Program-made: the position numbers and the translations under genes | Part shown: positions 6,483 to 49,947 of the stretch, one piece after another | Layout of the letters: each line of letters starts with the position of its first letter | Position numbering within the stretch: the stretch's first letter is position 1 | The notes under the pieces: model-generated | Told to the model about the DNA's origin: nothing | Seen by the model: the letters and a program-made list of their open reading frames with translations, nothing else | Database searches by the model: none | From: Halobacillus salinarum | Lineage (GTDB): Bacteria; Bacillota; Bacilli; Bacillales; Halobacillaceae | Assembly (NCBI RefSeq): GCF_022919095.1 | Contig: NZ_CP095073.1 | Location: 1,860,001-1,924,000, forward strand | DNA: 64,000 nucleotides | Direction of reading: 5' to 3'

Positions 6483-7598
6483 ATGAAGGAAATCGAACGT
6501 AAGTTAAATGGAGAAATCAGTCGTCTGACCAATAAGACGTTTAAATTTGATGAACGTGTAAAGGAAGGTTGGTTCTCAGCGGTCTATTTTTTAAAAACAA
6601 AACAGATCGTTGAGAAGCACCTACACGATAACATTGTAACGATGCAGTTTTTCCAAAAAAATCACGCTGTCCTATGCGGGACAGATGAAGCCATTGCTTT
6701 AGTCCATACTTTTGCTGAGTCTCCAGAAGCATTGGAGATTTATTCTTTAAAAGATGGAGACAAGATTAGTCCATTTGAAACCGTTATGACCATTACAGGA
6801 CCATATCAGAATTTTGGCTATTTAGAAGGTATCATTGATGGTATTCTTGCCCGGAGGACCTCGGTGGCTACGAATGTTTATAATGTGGTAAAAGCGGCTA
6901 GATTTTCTGGTAAGCAAAAACCGATCATATTCATGGGCGATCGTGATGATCATTATACACAACAGGCAGGGGACGGGTATGCCGCTTCCATTGGCGGATC
7001 CACGGCTCAAGCGACTCATGCCATGAATGAATGGTGGGGAAAAGAAGGTATGGGAACGATGCCGCATGCACTCATCCAAATGTTTAAAGGAGATGTAGTA
7101 TCGGCTTCAAGAGCATACCAGGATCAGTTTCCTGAGGATCAACTAATGGCACTTGTCGATTATAATAATGACGTCATAACGGATTCCCTAAAGGTAGCTC
7201 GGGAATTTGGAAGTGACCTTAAGGGGGTTCGTCTCGATACCTCTCGTTCACTCGTGGATAAATATTTTCTCAGAAATGAACACTTAATGGGAACCTTTGA
7301 CCCCAGGGGTGTGAACCCGGAGCTTGTATTTGCCTTAAGACGAGCTTTGGACAAAGAAGGATTTAATCACGTTCAAATTGTAGTGAGCGGCGGTTTTACA
7401 GAGGAAAGAATCAGAGACTTTGAAGAGAAAAAGGTGCCTGTAGATATGTACGGAGTTGGGGGGAGCCTTTTGAAAATCGGGATTGGTTTTACAGGGGATA
7501 ATGTATTACTTAATGGAATCCCAGAAGCGAAAGAAGGAAGAAGGTATAAACCGAACCCACGTTTAGAGTATGTGGAATATGTAGAACAAGATATCTAG
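6483..7598 (+). CDS. Nicotinate phosphoribosyltransferase-like protein
   Basis: A 371-residue cytoplasmic enzyme of the NAPRTase/QAPRTase fold, expected to join nicotinate to PRPP in NAD salvage. Visible family blocks are RRTSVATNVYNVVKAAR (near residue 125), GGSTAQATHAMNEWW (near 172), GVRLDTSRSLVDKY (near 248), QIVVSGGF (near 300) and the phosphate-loop-like YGVGGSLLKIG (near 323). It is shorter than the classical PncB enzymes of about 490 residues. The ATG at 6483 has AAGGAG about nine bases upstream. It sits between sftA and murC. The exact substrate is uncertain because related subfamilies use nicotinamide or quinolinate. Confidence 0.75.
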   Translation: MKEIERKLNGEISRLTNKTFKFDERVKEGWFSAVYFLKTKQIVEKHLHDNIVTMQFFQKNHAVLCGTDEAIALVHTFAESPEALEIYSLKDGDKISPFETVMTITGPYQNFGYLEGIIDGILARRTSVATNVYNVVKAARFSGKQKPIIFMGDRDDHYTQQAGDGYAASIGGSTAQATHAMNEWWGKEGMGTMPHALIQMFKGDVVSASRAYQDQFPEDQLMALVDYNNDVITDSLKVAREFGSDLKGVRLDTSRSLVDKYFLRNEHLMGTFDPRGVNPELVFALRRALDKEGFNHVQIVVSGGFTEERIRDFEEKKVPVDMYGVGGSLLKIGIGFTGDNVLLNGIPEAKEGRRYKPNPRLEYVEYVEQDI

Positions 7599-7788
7599 AG
7601 AATAGGATATTTATCCTTAAGATGGTTGTTTTTTCGAGCCATTTCTACTCTTTTTATCAGCTGGGTTCCGTGGTAAAATAGTGAAGCGCTCTTAAGGGAA
7701 AAAGCTGAAGTTCTTACAAATCGCAACTTAAAAAGTGCTACATATACTATACCTAAAGTGGTTCACTTTATTTTGGAGGTTCTTGTTT

Positions 7789-9081
7789 ATGACAACTTAC
7801 CATTTCATTGGTATCAAGGGAACTGGAATGAGTGCTCTCGCTCAAATCCTGCATGATTCAGGGGAGCAGGTGCAGGGATCAGATGTGGAAAAACGTTTCT
7901 TCACCCAGGATACCCTGGAAGCAAGGGATATTAAAATATTACCGTTCTCGAAGGAAAATATTACTGAAGGCTTAACGGTTATCGCAGGCAATGCTTTTTC
8001 AGATGACCACGAAGAGATTGCAGCAGCCAAAGAAGCAGGTCTTTCTTTTTACAGATATCATGAATTTTTAGGACAATGGTTAAAACAGTATACGAGTATT
8101 GCCGTTACAGGAGCACATGGCAAGACATCTACAACCGGGCTTCTTGCGCACGTACTTTCTGAAAATTACCCCACTTCCTATCTTATCGGCGATGGGACAG
8201 GAAAAGGACATACGGATAGTCAATATTTTGCTTTTGAAGCTTGTGAATACCGTCGTCATTTCCTGGAATATTATCCAGATTATGCGATTATGACGAATAT
8301 TGATTTCGATCATCCTGATTATTTTACCAGTATCGAAGATGTATTTCAGGCTTTTCAGCAAATGGCAAAACAAGTGAAGAAAGGGATTATCGCCTGCGGG
8401 GACGATGAACAGCTGCAGCATATACAAGCTAACGTTCCTGTACTTTATTATGGTTTTGCTGATTCCAATGATTTTCAGGCCCAAAACGTAGTGGAAAGTG
8501 AAGAAGGCACCACGTTTGACGTTTTTGTCCGCAGTACTTTTTATGATACATTTACCATTCCTCAATTTGGAAATCACAATGTATTAAATGCATTGAGCGT
8601 TGTTGCCATTTGCCATTATGAACAAATGAAGCCGGAAGAAATAAAGAAACTTTCCACGTTTAAAGGTGTAAAGAGACGTTTTACCGAGAAAAAGTGGGGA
8701 GATCAGATTCTTGTAGATGACTATGCTCATCATCCCATCGAAATCACAGCTACCATTGATTCAGCCAGAAAAAAATACGCTGAAAAGCCGGTCATAGCGA
8801 TTTTTCAGCCGCACACCTATACACGTACGAAAACTTTTTTGAATGAGTTTGCGGAAAGCTTAAGGCAGGCAGATCACGTGTATCTATGTGACATTTTTGG
8901 ATCTGCCCGTGAAAATAGTGGAAAGATGACGATTGAGCAGCTGCAGGAATTGATCCCTGAAGCAAAGCTGCTTGACCTAGCAGAAACAAAGCAGTTACAG
9001 CAATACTCTGAAGGTGTTCTGCTGTTTATGGGGGCTGGAGATATCCAAAAATTTCAGAAGGCATACGAGAACGAATCCTAA
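7789..9081 (+). CDS. murC: UDP-N-acetylmuramate--L-alanine ligase
   Basis: MurC adds L-alanine to UDP-MurNAc using ATP, the first step of the peptidoglycan stem peptide, in the cytoplasm. The 430-residue protein has the N-terminal nucleotide-sugar motif [13 protein letters not shown], the ATP loop [10 protein letters not shown] near residue 108, the central acidic motif [19 protein letters not shown] in the C-terminal half, and a C-terminal domain ending in [10 protein letters not shown]. The ATG at 7789 is chosen because TTGGAGG lies 9-14 bases upstream; upstream in-frame TTG-type starts have no ribosome site. A TGG-TAAAAT extended -10 near 7670-7679 may be its promoter. Terminator at 9087. 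Confidence 0.95.
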
Positions 9082-44410: not shown

Positions 44411-44558
44411 AAAAACTGAAAATTCGAATACCTTTTAAAAGGGTATGGAATTTTGAATGGATTTGTTACAATGGGAAGGCTTACACCGGACGCGGCATTT
44501 ACTTCAGGGAAAGTGTAAGAGGAGTTCTTTAGAGAATCGAATGGGAGGCTGGATGCTC

Positions 44559-45676
44559 ATGAAAATCGGAGTACCAAGAGAAGTCAAAAACAATGAAAAT
44601 CGCATAGCTATGACCCCAGCAGGCGTTATTTCACTAAAAAATGCTGGTCACGAAGTATATGTCGAGCAGGGTGCTGGTTTAGGTTCAAGTTTTACAGATG
44701 AACAATACCAGGAAGCAGGAGCTGTGATCGTAGCAACGGCGCAGGAAGCGTGGAGTCAGGAAATGGTGATGAAGGTTAAGGAACCACTTCCAGAAGAATA
44801 TACTTATTTTTATGAAGGTCTTATTTTATTTACTTATTTACATTTAGCACCTGAGCCTGAACTAACGAAGGCATTAATTGAGAATAAAGTGGTAGCTATC
44901 GCCTATGAAACGGTACAGCTGCCTAATGGCTCCCTGCCATTGTTGACTCCGATGAGTGAAGTGGCGGGACGTATGGCTTCCCAAATCGGTGCTCAGTTCC
45001 TTGAAAAATCACATGGAGGTAAAGGCATTCTCTTAGGAGGAATCCCTGGTGTAAGAAGGGGACGGGTCACGGTTATTGGTGGTGGAGTCGTTGGAACGAA
45101 TGCTGCCAAAATCGCGATGGGCTTAGGCGCAGATGTCACTATTATTGATTTGAATCCGGAGCGTCTCCGCCAGCTGGATGATATCTTTGGCTCAGACATC
45201 AATACGCTTATGTCGAACCCCTTAAACATTCAGGAATCTCTACAGGAATCTGATTTGGTCATTGGAGCTGTTTTAATTCCTGGAGCAAAAGCCCCTAAAT
45301 TAGTGACCGAGGATATGGTTCAATCCATGCCGGAAGGTTCAGTGATCGTTGATGTAGCCATCGACCAAGGGGGATTTTTGCTACGACTGACCGGATCACC
45401 ACACATGATGATCCTACCTATGTAAAACATGGGGTAGTTCATTATGCTGTAGCAAATATGCCTGGTGCGGTTCCACGTACATCCACCATTGGTTTAACAA
45501 ACGTTACAGTCCCTTACGCCCTTCAGTTGGCAAATAAAGGCTATAAGCAGGCATGTAAGGATAACGAAGCATTATTTAAAGGCATTAATACTGCTGAAGG
45601 ATATGTGACATATCAGGCGGTTGCTGAAGCGCATGGGCTGGAATATGCAAGTGCGCATGAATTATTAAAGATTTAA
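44559..45676 (+). pseudogene. ald: Alanine dehydrogenase, frameshifted
   Basis: NAD-dependent alanine dehydrogenase converts alanine to pyruvate and ammonia, used for alanine use and sporulation. Visible are [15 protein letters not shown], the substrate region THLAP-like [21 protein letters not shown], the NAD loop [17 protein letters not shown] and [11 protein letters not shown]. Reading breaks at the G run at 45370-45374: adding one G restores [20 protein letters not shown], which joins the second frame beginning [18 protein letters not shown] and ends at 45676, for about 372 residues. Either a true frameshift or a base-calling error. Start: ATG 44559 or 44553 behind GGGAGG. Confidence 0.85.
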
Positions 45677-45725: not shown

Positions 45726-45809
45726 AAAATTTAAATAGAGAATGAAACCTTATTCGTGATTCATCCGTACATACAGATATCAAGAGAAATGCGAAGGTGA
45801 GGTGAGCAT

Positions 45810-46319
45810 TTGGGCTTTTTTTCGAGAATGTTTTCAAAAAAGAAAGAAGCACCAGAAGTAAAGGAGAGGACTGCATTATCGATCCAAGTCGGGGATATCG
45901 TAACTTACGATCTCGTTGATTATGAAGTGGTCGGCAAAATCTCTTACCGAGATGGTTCATACGAATGGTTTGCCTATCAATTACTGGAAGGCAGTAATAC
46001 GAAGTGGCTGTCTGCTGAAATGGATGATGAGCTTGAATTAGGGATCTATGTTACAGTTAATTTACAAGTGAATCCCCCATTTCCAAAGCAGCTTACCTAT
46101 GAAGGAACCACTTATTATAAAGATGAAGAAGGGGAAGCACATGTAAAAGGGGAAGGCAGAAGCCGGAATATTGATAACCGGTCTACACGCTATGCTGATT
46201 ATATTTCGGATGATGAAGAATCATACCTCAGTCTTGAGTCATGGGGAAGTGAAATTGAAGTCAGCTACGGTTATGATATAGAGCCATATGAAATAAAGAT
46301 TATCGCAGGATCAAATTAA
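45810..46319 (+). CDS. DUF4178 family protein of the PspA module
   Basis: A 169-residue soluble beta-rich protein with a short basic N-terminus (MGFFSRMFSKKK) and the DUF4178 core: LSIQVGDIVTYDLVDYEVVG (about residues 23-42), WFAYQLLEGSNTKWLSAEMD (55-74), then YEGTTYYKDEEGEAHVKGEG. This domain recurs beside PspA, DUF350 and spermidine-synthase-like genes. Start is TTG at 45810 behind GGTGAGGTGAG. It is the first gene of the module, 15 bases before pspA. Its action is unknown; a scaffold or sensor role at the membrane is only inferred. Confidence 0.78.
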   Translation: MGFFSRMFSKKKEAPEVKERTALSIQVGDIVTYDLVDYEVVGKISYRDGSYEWFAYQLLEGSNTKWLSAEMDDELELGIYVTVNLQVNPPFPKQLTYEGTTYYKDEEGEAHVKGEGRSRNIDNRSTRYADYISDDEESYLSLESWGSEIEVSYGYDIEPYEIKIIAGSN

Positions 46320-46334
46320 AAAGGAGGATCTTTG

Positions 46335-47006
46335 ATGTTTAAATTTTTCAGTCGAGTCAAAACGGTGGTTGGTGCAGAGCTGAATGCCATGCTTGATAAA
46401 GCAGAAGATCCAGTGAAAATGCTGGATCAGTTTATGAGAGACATGGAAAGTGATATTCGCGAAGCAGAAAGTGCGGTTGCTAAGCAAATAGCGAATGAAA
46501 AAATGCTGAAACGCAAATATGATGATTCTCAAGCTTTAGTGGATAAACGAATGCAGCAGGCTGAAAAAGCCATAGACGCAGGAGACGAAGATCTGGCCCG
46601 TCGTGCCCTGGAAGATAAAAATAATCACAAAGAACAGGCAGATCAGTTGAAAGCTTCCTGGGAAAGAGCTAAAGAAGATTCCAATAATCTTCGCAAAAAA
46701 CTAGACGAAATGAAAAAAGAATACCAGGAAATGAAATTGAAAAAAGATTCATTAAAAGCGAGAGCGGAATCTGCTAAAACCAGAACAAAAATGAACCGTA
46801 CGATGTCCAATATCGGTGGAGATGAATCACGTCAAGGGTTTGAAAGAATGGAAGAAAAAGTTATGCAGTTTGAAGCGGAAGCTGAGACGAGCGAAGACTT
46901 ATCGAAATCCAACCGTTCCCTGGACGATGAATTCGAAGCTCTTGATAAAAAAGATAACGTGGACGATGAGCTTGCTGCTCTGAAGAAGAAAATGAATAAA
47001 GAATAA
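46335..47006 (+). CDS. pspA: PspA/IM30 family envelope stress protein
   Basis: A 223-residue ESCRT-III-like protein that coats and mends the membrane under envelope stress. It starts with the amphipathic helix (FKFFSRVKTVVGAELNAML, residues 2-20) that binds lipid, followed by long coiled-coil helices rich in Glu, Lys and Ala (ALVDKRMQQAEKAIDAGDEDLARRALEDK in shorter blocks). The length fits PspA. AAGGAGG precedes the ATG; a preceding in-frame TTG is less likely. It is followed by a perfect 11-bp hairpin without T run. PspF-like control is not visible. Confidence 0.92.
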   Translation: MFKFFSRVKTVVGAELNAMLDKAEDPVKMLDQFMRDMESDIREAESAVAKQIANEKMLKRKYDDSQALVDKRMQQAEKAIDAGDEDLARRALEDKNNHKEQADQLKASWERAKEDSNNLRKKLDEMKKEYQEMKLKKDSLKARAESAKTRTKMNRTMSNIGGDESRQGFERMEEKVMQFEAEAETSEDLSKSNRSLDDEFEALDKKDNVDDELAALKKKMNKE

Positions 47007-47029
47007 TCGCTGGCAGAATTCCGGATATC

Positions 47030-47056
47030 CGTGCCTGACTGTTGAAGTCAGGCACG
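47030..47056 (+). other. Intra-operon hairpin after pspA
   Basis: CGTGCCTGACT (47030-47040) pairs perfectly with AGTCAGGCACG (47046-47056), loop 5, no T run; it may protect the pspA end of a processed mRNA. Confidence 0.6.
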
Positions 47057-47080
47057 AATATATTTGGAAGGGGGACTCGT

Positions 47081-47764
47081 GTGAGGAATTATGCTGGGTT
47101 AATTATTGTAGGAATAATAGCCGTCATATTAATGTTTAATTTATTTAACAGACCTGACAATACAGCTAATCGCGGAATGTCAGGGGGAGGAAATTATCAA
47201 GAGAATACATATGAAGATCTGCCTGATGAGCCTGAAAAATCTGAAATTCTAGATACGATCAAAGCAAGCAGTAATTCATCGATTCAAAACGTTGTAAAGC
47301 AGTCATTTCCTTTGCTGGATACAGTTAAAACGGATCAAGGGTTATCAAAAATTTACGTCACCCGCAAACTCAGCCTTCCCGAAGCTGCTGATGCTTTATC
47401 CCAACAAGTAAAACCTCAGGAAATAAGCAAGCGTCAGGAAGGGAAACAAGTACTGGTTTATAAAAATGATTTCGTCATCCTGCAGGAGAGCCAGGAGCAA
47501 AACAACGTCGTTTTTATTGAACTTGCGAGTGACCAGTTTGTAAGAAATCATTATTCACCTAGTTTCTTTGACGGTCTGCTTGCTTATTACATTTTAGATG
47601 AAGTGCTGGATGCTGATGATTGGTTTAAAAAACGGAAAGCAAAGTGCCAGACCCAAGGGAATTGTTATGGAGGGTATGTTCGTTCAGGTGGTTTTAATTC
47701 CGGTAAGACTGGATCTTTCCGTGGGTCTTCCCAGCGTGGTGGCGGTCCTGGAGCAGGAAAATAA
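47081..47764 (+). CDS. DUF4247 family membrane protein
   Basis: A 227-residue protein: short basic start, one membrane helix (YAGLIIVGIIAVILMFNLF, about residues 4-22), an outside domain (about 50-185; YVTRKLSLPEAADALSQQVK and SPSFFDGLLAYYILDEVLDA) and a Gly/Ser/Arg-rich tail with two Cys (AKCQTQGNCYGG). It fits the DUF4247 family, of unknown function, found with PspA modules. GTG at 47081 follows GAAGGGGGA; earlier in-frame starts lie in the pspA hairpin. Thirteen bases before DUF350. Confidence 0.75.
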   Translation: MRNYAGLIIVGIIAVILMFNLFNRPDNTANRGMSGGGNYQENTYEDLPDEPEKSEILDTIKASSNSSIQNVVKQSFPLLDTVKTDQGLSKIYVTRKLSLPEAADALSQQVKPQEISKRQEGKQVLVYKNDFVILQESQEQNNVVFIELASDQFVRNHYSPSFFDGLLAYYILDEVLDADDWFKKRKAKCQTQGNCYGGYVRSGGFNSGKTGSFRGSSQRGGGPGAGK

Positions 47765-47777
47765 AGGAGGCATATAA

Positions 47778-48173
47778 ATGGAACCTTTCTTAATGACGTT
47801 AGCGTATTTTGTGATAGCAATTTTTGTTGTACTAATTGGCCTGGTTGTATTTGAATTCATTACTACGAAATATAAAGACTGGGAAGAAATTGGATCGGGC
47901 AATCAAGCCGTTGCCTTATCGATTTCGGGAAAAATAATTGGCATCTGCATCATTCTGTCGTTTGCCATTTATAACAGTTTGACCATATGGGATACGATCA
48001 TTTGGGGAGCATACGGAGTAGTATTGCAAATGGTTGCCTACTTATTGTTTGAACTGTTTACGAGAAGTTTCTCTGTGGGTTCTAAGCTTAAGGAAAACAA
48101 CATGGCAGTTGGTATTGTCTCTATGGGCGTCTCGATCGGGTTAGCATTTGTAATTGGGGCATCTATTACATAA
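47778..48173 (+). CDS. DUF350 family membrane protein
   Basis: A 131-residue protein with four membrane segments arranged as two related halves: EIGSGNQAVALSISGKIIGI (near residues 37-56) and LKENNMAVGIVSMGVSIGLA (near 104-123) are both of the DUF350 type. The family recurs with PspA-like proteins in many bacteria. AAGGAGG is nine bases before the ATG. A terminator at 48205 follows, so the first four genes may form the main operon. Function is unknown; a membrane partner for PspA is suggested by context. Confidence 0.82.
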   Translation: MEPFLMTLAYFVIAIFVVLIGLVVFEFITTKYKDWEEIGSGNQAVALSISGKIIGICIILSFAIYNSLTIWDTIIWGAYGVVLQMVAYLLFELFTRSFSVGSKLKENNMAVGIVSMGVSIGLAFVIGASIT

Positions 48174-48204
48174 CCCTAGTCTATTATTTGGATGATTTCT
48201 CCTT

Positions 48205-48240
48205 AAAAGCCACTAAGGATCGTTTCCTGGTGGCTTTTTT
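48205..48240 (+). terminator. Terminator after the DUF350 gene
   Basis: AAAAGCCAC (48205-48213) pairs with GTGGCTTTT (48230-48238) with an inner AAGGA/TTCCT extension; ends in T6. It separates the first four genes of the module from the aminopropyltransferase-like gene. Confidence 0.82.
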
Positions 48241-48261
48241 AGATGAAGGAAATGAAAGTAA

Positions 48262-48365
48262 TGATGTCAGCATGCATGTGTTTTGACGCTGGGGTGGTTC
48301 TTCATTCTCGATTACAGGAATCCTTCCTTGATTGCAGATGTTCCCACTAACGTTTAATGACATCA
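48262..48365 (+). other. Long-range inverted repeat in the leader of the spermidine-synthase-like gene
   Basis: TGATGTCA (48262-48269) is complementary to TGACATCA (48358-48365) across 88 bases that themselves contain CAGC/GCTG and GGAA/TTCC pairs. It could be a structured leader. Confidence 0.4.
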
Positions 48366-48396
48366 CTAAGAGAGCAAAAAGACCGGAGTGAATAGT

Positions 48397-49947
48397 ATGG
48401 CAGCGAATTTTCAAAATAAAACCCGTTTCATTTATTGGGCCTCTGGCATTGTCTCGATTTGCGGAATCATTTTTGAAGTGCTTTTTGGGGCCTTAGGTTC
48501 TTACATTTTAGGAGATGGGGTGAAACAATATACGCTCACGATCAGCTTGTTTTTGACAGGTATGGGGATTGGCGCAAGTATCAGTGAAAAGGTGATGAAG
48601 CGACTGGTGATCACCTTTGTCTGGATTGAGTTTATGGTGGCCCTTGTCGGTGGTTTTTCAAGTTTTATGATGTTTGGCATGACTGCTTTTGCTCCTGAAG
48701 GAACTGACGCGCTGTTTCTCTACCTTTTAACTTTTACTGTGGGAGGATTAACAGGGCTGGAACTGCCTATTTTAATACGAAAAGCGAATGAAATCGGGGA
48801 AGAACTCAATCGAAGTACAGCCCGCGTTCTATTTTCTGATTATGCGGGTGGATTAATAGGCGGATTGCTTTTTGCATTTTACCTGCGTCCTCAAATGGGC
48901 ATGGTGAAGAGTGCTTTTTTTGTAGCTTGTATCAATCTTGCTATCGCGATCGGTGTGCTCTATCTATTTCGTAAAGAAATCAATCGTTTGAGATTCCATA
49001 CTGCTGCTGGTGTCCTGATTGGTCTTCTATTGATAGGCGGGTTGTTTTTTGGGGAGGAGATGGCTTTTTCTTTTGAACAAAAACTTTATAAAGATCCGAT
49101 CATTCTTAAAGAGGACAGTGCTTATCAGCATATTGTCATGACTAAAGAAGAAGGAGACACCCGGTTGTATTTAGATGGATCTTTACAATTTAGTTCTTCT
49201 GATGAGGAGCGTTACCACGAAACCCTCGTCCATCCACCGATGGCGGAAGCCTCAAAGAGGGAACATATTCTTATCTTAGGTGGAGGAGACGGTCTTGCGG
49301 CAAGGGAAGTGCTTCAATACCCGGAAGTAAAAGACATTACGTTAGTCGATTTGGATCCAGCGATGACTAAGCTTGCTAAGACGAATTACCACTTGCTGCA
49401 AATGAATAAAGGGTCGTTATTAAATGATAAAGTGACCGTTCTAAATAAGGATGCTTTTCAATTTTTGAAACAATCCGAATCATTTTATGATGTCATTCTC
49501 GTTGATCTGCCTGATCCAAATAACGAAAGTTTAAACAAGCTTTATACAAAAGAATTTTATTCACTCGTGAGAAATCATTTAGATCCCGGTGGAGCGGCGA
49601 TGATACAAGCGACGAGTCCGGTGTTTGCTACAAAGGTTTACTGGACAATCAGCGATACCATTGAAGCGACAGGTCTGTACACCGAAAATTTTCATGTGGA
49701 TATTCCAAGCTTCGGGAATTGGGGCTTTGTGATGGCCAGCAGGGAACCGATTGATGCAGGAAGCATTCATTTAAAAGCAGACACGAATTATTTAACAGAC
49801 GAGCTGTTAAACTCCATGACGGTGTTTGGAAAGGATGAAGACAGGGAAATCATATCCAAGGAAGGAAAGAAAGTTTCCTTAAAACCCAATACACTGATCG
49901 ATCCTCACCTTATTCAACTTTATGAATCTGCATGGCAGCATTACTAG
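48397..49947 (+). CDS. Membrane-fused polyamine aminopropyltransferase (spermidine-synthase-like)
   Basis: A 516-residue protein. Residues 1-215 hold about seven membrane helices (GIVSICGIIFEVLFGALGSY start), and residues about 225-500 are a spermidine-synthase fold: SSDEERYHETLVHPPM (YHE motif), ILILGGGDGLAAREVLQ near residue 290, ITLVDLDPAMTKLAK and VILVDLPDPNNESLNKLYT. It may transfer an aminopropyl or related group from decarboxylated SAM at the membrane; the acceptor is unknown. ATG at 48397 follows CGGAG. It belongs to the PspA module by gene family but has its own leader. Confidence 0.85.
   Translation: MAANFQNKTRFIYWASGIVSICGIIFEVLFGALGSYILGDGVKQYTLTISLFLTGMGIGASISEKVMKRLVITFVWIEFMVALVGGFSSFMMFGMTAFAPEGTDALFLYLLTFTVGGLTGLELPILIRKANEIGEELNRSTARVLFSDYAGGLIGGLLFAFYLRPQMGMVKSAFFVACINLAIAIGVLYLFRKEINRLRFHTAAGVLIGLLLIGGLFFGEEMAFSFEQKLYKDPIILKEDSAYQHIVMTKEEGDTRLYLDGSLQFSSSDEERYHETLVHPPMAEASKREHILILGGGDGLAAREVLQYPEVKDITLVDLDPAMTKLAKTNYHLLQMNKGSLLNDKVTVLNKDAFQFLKQSESFYDVILVDLPDPNNESLNKLYTKEFYSLVRNHLDPGGAAMIQATSPVFATKVYWTISDTIEATGLYTENFHVDIPSFGNWGFVMASREPIDAGSIHLKADTNYLTDELLNSMTVFGKDEDREIISKEGKKVSLKPNTLIDPHLIQLYESAWQHY

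Follow-up and report, generated by a model that had tools for sequence, protein, structure and literature searches.

A membrane-fused aminopropyltransferase and a proposed lysine modification on a surface tail in a PspA operon of Halobacillus salinarum

An MFS-SpdSyn fusion that is encoded with AdoMetDC and DUF350 is said to be described in the abstract of Li et al. 2019. The SpeD partner was reportedly functional, and the fusions reportedly aminopropylate something other than putrescine; neither a protein acceptor nor a C-terminal lysine is known to have been named there. A class of PspA operons with a seven-transmembrane (7TM) spermidine-synthase fusion, e.g., Shewanella AAN56744-AAN56747, was described by Ravi et al. 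2024 (PMC11237479). That work, in which lysine is not mentioned, placed DUF4247 in a different operon type that lacks PspA and named the actinobacterial DUF4247 operon CCP45395 (PMC11237479). Here, we analyzed a five-gene operon of Halobacillus salinarum that contains PspA, DUF4247, and a seven-helix membrane aminopropyltransferase, which we abbreviate 7TM-APT. The operon lies in a window of 64,000 nucleotides, corresponding to bases 1860001-1924000 of the 4.24-Mb single-contig genome. Because the operon type has been published by Ravi et al. and, reportedly, by Li et al., the gene cluster itself is not new. What we did not find reported before is the lysine ending of the envelope partner and its association with the enzyme, the predicted position of the catalytic domain on the outside, and the sigma-W promoter; for the C-terminal lysine, no published report was found in a search that left subscription journals mostly outside its reach. 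On balance, we lean toward the view that 7TM-APT aminopropylates the C-terminal lysine of a surface tail within a sigma-W envelope-stress module.

The Gly-Lys end of the envelope partner

All five genes are on the + strand and have strong Pfam matches, which bears out an initial annotation of the DNA that had listed PspA, DUF4178, DUF4247, DUF350, and a membrane-fused synthase as consecutive genes. In order, they encode a DUF4178 protein of 169 aa that is predicted to be cytosolic (45810..46319; PF13785, 5e-37), a PspA/IM30 protein of 223 aa (46335..47006; PF04012 (PspA_IM30), 2e-50), a DUF4247 envelope protein of 227 aa (47081..47764; PF14042, 4e-13), a DUF350 membrane protein of 131 aa (47778..48173; PF03994, 5e-36), and 7TM-APT (48397..49947; PF01564 (Spermine_synth), 3e-37). 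The DUF4247 protein consists of an N-terminal anchor helix, an outward domain with a Cys pair, and a Gly/Ser/Arg-rich tail. It is transmembrane (TM)-anchored in the window and either a lipoprotein or TM-anchored in relatives. The tail ends with RGGGPGAGK followed by the stop codon (47735..47764, + strand), and its final Lys is the proposed aminopropyl acceptor. This conserved end had been missed by the initial annotation. DUF4247 is fast-evolving, yet its end is nearly invariant, reading R-G-G-G-x-x-x-G-K. Homologues were found with a model built from sequences trimmed of their last 12 residues, and all 28 Bacillota DUF4247 homologues that adjoin 7TM-APT end in GK, as compared to a C-terminal Lys in 9.8% of the long open reading frames (ORFs) from the same loci. 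In view of a surface partner with a Gly-rich end and a final Lys, this Lys is the probable site at which the enzyme attaches a polyamine-type group. DUF4247 also gave a short match to the sequences of designed TIM barrels, which was taken as chance.

The presence of DUF4247 follows that of the enzyme. Among 249 Bacillota genomes, DUF4247 was found in 8 of 8 with full-length 7TM-APT and in 2 of the 241 others (Fisher 1.4e-13, uncorrected for relatedness). The two genomes with DUF4247 and without 7TM-APT keep PspA-DUF350-DUF4178-DUF4247, and their DUF4247 tails end in RRR and GRR, which are basic but not GK. Therefore, in this small sample, the absence of 7TM-APT goes with the absence of Gly-Lys. 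Two relatives of these genomes have PspA-DUF350-DUF4178 only.

A scan of one genome per species revealed 80 further loci beyond the Bacillota survey, distributed over Gemmatimonadota, Acidobacteriota, Pseudomonadota, Bacteroidota, Leptospirota, Myxococcota, Elusimicrobiota, Verrucomicrobiota, Fibrobacterota, and others. A peptide of 45-65 residues with one helix often serves as the partner in phyla other than Bacillota. In Burkholderiales, this role falls to the tail of a DUF4178 protein, which points outward after a single helix, and the Alteromonas partner is a large lipoprotein that ends with GPSSGK. Automated picking of the gene before DUF350 in these phyla gave 64 picks, 56 of which have Lys at the end, always as GK or HK; the other eight were spurious tiny ORFs, and a Lys-ended partner was read by hand at these loci. 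Counted by hand, 78 of 85 loci, from about eleven phyla, have a Lys-ended partner, which is encoded either within the locus or at another site of the genome. The Tritonibacter partner ends with VK and all others with GK or HK; the partners are very different proteins. In 13 genomes without a partner directly beside 7TM-APT, DUF350 was looked up and its neighbors were read, which located a Lys-tailed protein at the DUF350 operon; in two of the 13 (L243 and L244), 7TM-APT is divergent beside this DUF350-linked protein. DUF1190 proteins were sought as an in-genome contrast, and none were found in 36 of the newly scanned genomes. An AlphaFold2 model of the Burkholderiales DUF4178-TM-tail protein (pLDDT 77) had no significant match in the PDB.

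Catalytic sites and topology of 7TM-APT

The Spermine_synth domain, together with a Foldseek match to 1uir (7e-18), places 7TM-APT in the aminopropyltransferase family. Its closest solved folds are the Thermus thermophilus triamine/agmatine polyamine aminopropyltransferase and the plant thermospermine synthase, both of which take long acceptors. A comparison with a viral structure library gave weak matches only, on the methyltransferase-like fold. The residues expected for binding of decarboxylated S-adenosylmethionine (dcAdoMet) and for the catalytic Asp are present: D301, which is the acidic residue of GxG(D/E)G, D373, and D376 are invariant in 118 fusions, and the invariant positions of the fusions also include GGGDG, D323, D355, and Q407.

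The acceptor side is changed relative to 20 ordinary SpeE proteins from the same phylum. Arg275 replaces Val, Gln267-Phe268 replaces Met-Thr, and His436 replaces Thr. In addition, Phe442 and a two-residue deletion replace the Tyr of the SpeE TYPSG motif, which in spermidine synthase is on the putrescine side. Arg275, which adjoins the conserved Tyr276, could hold a C-terminal carboxylate. Soluble spermidine as the sole product is disfavored by the acceptor-side changes, and hosts often have an ordinary SpeE too; the product of 7TM-APT is probably not just soluble spermidine. In five genomes from one and the same taxonomic order, SpeD is present and the fusion is the sole Spermine_synth domain. 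Consequently, no candidate other than the fusion is available to consume dcAdoMet in those five genomes.

To the initial annotation the synthase had about seven membrane helices, and the AlphaFold2 model (pLDDT 92, pTM 0.87) has exactly seven TM helices followed by the synthase domain. The helices span residues 2-41, 44-66, 73-101, 106-135, 140-170, 172-193, and 201-233, numbered from GTG 48388. The 7-TM domain is encoded by 48397..49086 and the aminopropyltransferase domain by 49087..49944, and the latter is predicted to be on the outward side of the membrane based on the odd number of helices and an inside N-terminus. In Bacillota, the mean number of Lys and Arg residues is 2.2, 3.9, and 3.4 in loops 2, 4, and 6 and 0.9, 0, and 1.0 in loops 1, 3, and 5, and the same pattern was observed elsewhere. 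From the loop charges and the seven helices of the model, we infer that the N-terminus is inside and the catalytic domain outside, on the same side as the tail. The aminopropyltransferase domain contains no Cys in 10,889 residues from 38 Bacillota homologues, as compared to 12 in 5,627 residues for SpeE. The tail partners are lipoproteins or are N-in/C-out by charge; this charge bias was seen in 48 of 72 sequences and the opposite one in 8, where some of the 72 are C-terminal pieces of DUF4178 proteins.

Promoter, operon structure, and gene neighborhood

A sigma-W-type extracytoplasmic function (ECF) promoter, TGAAAC-N17-CGTA, is located at 45743..45769 on the + strand as an exact match, ∼41 bases before the first start codon. 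The TGAAAC/CGTA motif with a spacer of 15-17 was found in 21 of 27 upstream regions, comprising the window and nearly all Bacillales operons, as compared to 0.0004 expected per region. Of the six regions without it, one is from Bacillales and has CGAAAC and five are from non-Bacilli. This conservation rules out a chance occurrence of the promoter. With a TGAAAC-N16/17-CGTA promoter and SigW encoded in the same genome, the operon is predicted to be sigma-W-controlled. The promoter had escaped the initial annotation, and it supports the membrane-stress context that the latter had proposed. Elsewhere, the window genome encodes SpeD ∼30 kb downstream of 7TM-APT, an ordinary SpeE far away, and a second PspA-family protein. 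A second DUF350 gene is at G000:C1:1963192-1963563, and a sigma-W-like motif is present ∼1.9 kb before speD (G000:C1:1938260-1938285).

Likely start codons were chosen by ribosome-binding sites (RBS), which moved three starts: PspA to ATG 46335, preceded by AAGGAGG; DUF4247 to GTG 47081, with the RBS GGAAGGGGG; and 7TM-APT to ATG 48397, which was preferred over GTG 48388. The DUF4178 gene starts with TTG 45810, whose RBS and start are kept in relatives, and the DUF350 gene with ATG 47778. A terminator-like scan found a strong hairpin with an 11-pair stem and no clear U-tract between pspA and the DUF4247 gene (47030..47056, + strand). It overlaps the upstream TTG start of the longest DUF4247 ORF, TTG 47042, which was rejected because it is inside the hairpin; the hairpin itself is a possible processing or attenuation site. 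A terminator-like hairpin followed by a T run was also read from the sequence between the DUF350 and 7TM-APT genes (48205..48239, + strand). In most relatives this gap is short.

No ORF in or directly beside the operon corresponds to pspF, pspB, or pspC. The locus is thus not a classical PspF-PspBC phage-shock system, and the initial annotation was correct in stating that PspF and the classical Psp sensors are not linked here. There is no CesT/Tir (DUF2170) gene beside pspA among the five genes, between which no unassigned ORF is present, and no ATP-grasp ligase gene is in the operon.

Of the 20 relatives examined, 19 have the genes in the order DUF4178-PspA-DUF4247-DUF350-7TM-APT, and ald and ytkL often flank them; the same families recur in more distant Bacillota. 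Together with the loci in other phyla, this survey shows that the association is not random, as the initial annotation had anticipated. The relative G003 has lipoprotein-DUF350-7TM-APT without PspA and DUF4178. In the relative G022 (L041 5136-12378), the whole operon is tandemly duplicated, and the first-copy 7TM-APT is cut at about residue 205, leaving the membrane part only. Among distant Bacillota loci, a TrkA-type potassium channel gene follows 7TM-APT in L088, L090, and L091, L087 has short ion-channel ORFs, and L089 has an extra 179-aa gene between pspA and DUF4247 (7524-8063) that is possibly of the DUF2617 type described in PMC11237479. In the window, the ald (alanine dehydrogenase) gene at 44457-45676 has a frame change at ∼45370-45400 that puts its halves in different frames, which may reflect either a real pseudogene or a sequence error.

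In the 80 further loci, the usual neighbors are DUF4178, SPFH, an amine-oxidase-like flavin adenine dinucleotide (FAD) protein, and SpeD, and PspA is rare. Outside Bacillota, the FAD protein, like SpeD, is often added to the operon. Its gene is found downstream of 7TM-APT (e.g., L095 8442-10058), and it often carries a twin-arginine translocation (Tat) signal with a lipobox. Since the Tat count used a loose pattern, only clear RRxF cases were taken as evidence. An exported FAD amine oxidase is a possible eraser of the modification.

Proposed modification, alternatives, and known systems

In the scheme that we favor, SpeD would make dcAdoMet, and 7TM-APT would transfer an aminopropyl group from dcAdoMet to the epsilon-amine of the C-terminal Lys of the DUF4247 tail; as a peptide, the proposed acceptor tail is GSSQRGGGPGAGK. 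The side chain of lysine provides an aminobutyl group like that of putrescine. The product would be N6-(3-aminopropyl)lysine, which would provide a polyamine-like end on a flexible outward tail. To reach the active site, dcAdoMet may pass through the 7-TM part, which is a guess and the weakest point of the scheme. The three other proteins, of which DUF350 would be in the membrane and DUF4178 and PspA at its inner face, may couple the state of the tail to membrane repair, which is a guess as well. Lysine as the acceptor, the passage of dcAdoMet, and the signaling role are all inferred. We are more hesitant, with doubt slightly outweighing confidence, about the broader proposal that an outward-facing membrane aminopropyltransferase carries out a protein modification not described before, on the C-terminal Lys of envelope proteins that are small or lipid-anchored. 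Such a system would be present in about eleven bacterial phyla, and in many of these an exported FAD amine oxidase might act as the eraser.

Several points weigh against the lysine modification. An active site on the outside needs dcAdoMet outside, and we know of no dcAdoMet transporter; if the domain is inside, the tail would have to be modified before export. The depletion of Cys is weaker outside Bacillota, where one Cys, at position 420, is present in about half of the sequences. In 7 of the 85 loci, mostly at contig ends, no Lys-ended partner was located. Owing to the relatedness of the sequences, their independence is exaggerated by naive statistics. The window genome has an ordinary SpeE, so spermidine synthesis there is independent of the fusion. 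Finally, the tail could serve for recognition or docking and not as the acceptor.

Docking is part of an alternative that we consider unlikely, although it deserves attention: the acceptor of 7TM-APT at the membrane would be a lipid head group or a small amine, and the partner's Lys tail would serve only for docking of the enzyme or for sensing of its product. It is consistent with the membrane location of the enzyme, it matches the idea of the initial annotation, and monitoring of the polyamine level or aminopropylation of other substrates has been suggested (PMC11237479). However, it predicts neither GK or HK exactly on unrelated partners nor a different tail end where the enzyme is absent, and a docking tail does not need a C-terminal amine. 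The polyamine-type modification of the initial annotation holds insofar as the aminopropyltransferase probably does not make just soluble spermidine, whereas for its lipid or small-molecule acceptor the evidence instead favors the C-terminal lysine of the partner. Somewhat less probable is a reaction with the same Lys substrate that takes place at the cytosolic face, with the tail exported afterward, which would mean that the apparent outside topology is wrong. This would suit a donor that is made in the cytosol by SpeD and has no known exporter, but the strong loop charge bias, the seven helices, and the lack of Cys in the Bacillota domain argue against it, as do the translocation of a lipoprotein or TM tail with its C-terminus last and the frequent Tat signals on the amine oxidases of the operon.

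We regard as still less probable a membrane-attached spermidine or long-chain polyamine synthase that alters the local polyamine level. The fold is closest to that of polyamine aminopropyltransferases and the donor site is intact, but the SpeE Tyr has become Phe with a two-residue deletion, the Val has become an invariant Arg, and many host genomes also keep an ordinary SpeE. Such a fusion reportedly did not complement an E. coli speE mutant, with spermidine absent (Li et al. 2019). The least probable alternative is that the Gly-Lys tail has nothing to do with the enzyme; it would instead bind an anionic polymer of the envelope or give protection against carboxypeptidases. While the tail is Gly/Arg-rich and positively charged, the two DUF4247 proteins from genomes without the enzyme keep basic tails that do not end in GK, and unrelated partners have the same last two residues.

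If the lysine modification is correct, it would propose a specific acceptor for a widespread orphan class, the membrane-fused spermidine synthases, and would give a reason why some bacteria keep SpeD without an ordinary aminopropyltransferase. Like the operon of Ravi et al. 2024, the one described here combines PspA, DUF350, DUF4178, an envelope lipoprotein, and a 7-TM spermidine-synthase fusion; unlike it, the present operon has no CesT/Tir (DUF2170) and has DUF4247 in place of the Ctha_1186 lipoprotein (PMC11237479). The fungal N-terminal histidine methyltransferase NHMT also has seven TM helices and a spermidine-synthase-like domain, acts on secreted proteins, and needs its membrane part for activity (PMC10349129). 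NHMT has Ile at the acidic position of GxG(D/E)G and methylates, whereas Asp301 of 7TM-APT is invariant, as expected for dcAdoMet. Because of this invariant acidic donor residue, a methyltransferase reading of 7TM-APT was rejected.

A further comparison is offered by E. coli YgiC/YjfC, which both a RefSeq record and the title of Pederick et al. 2023 call peptide-spermidine ligases. In the YjfIJKLMC operon, the PspA-like YjfJ and the DUF350 protein YjfL are encoded with the polyamine-to-peptide enzyme YjfC, as PspA and DUF350 are with 7TM-APT here. The envelope proteins YjfM/YgiB have Gly/Ser/Arg-rich tails like DUF4247 and are encoded beside the YjfC/YgiC enzyme. The differences are that YjfC/YgiC are ATP-grasp ligases and YjfM/YgiB end with GG, while the present operon has an aminopropyltransferase and a Gly-Lys end. 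By analogy, two chemistries would be in use: attachment of spermidine to a C-terminal carboxylate by YgiC/YjfC and construction of a polyamine on a C-terminal lysine by 7TM-APT. If so, one idea, a surface tail that carries a polyamine-type group at its C-terminus, would link two PspA/DUF350 operon types known until now mainly as gene neighborhoods, and in PspA/DUF350 stress systems 7TM-APT would offer a second way, beside the ATP-grasp ligases, of tipping a surface tail with a polyamine.

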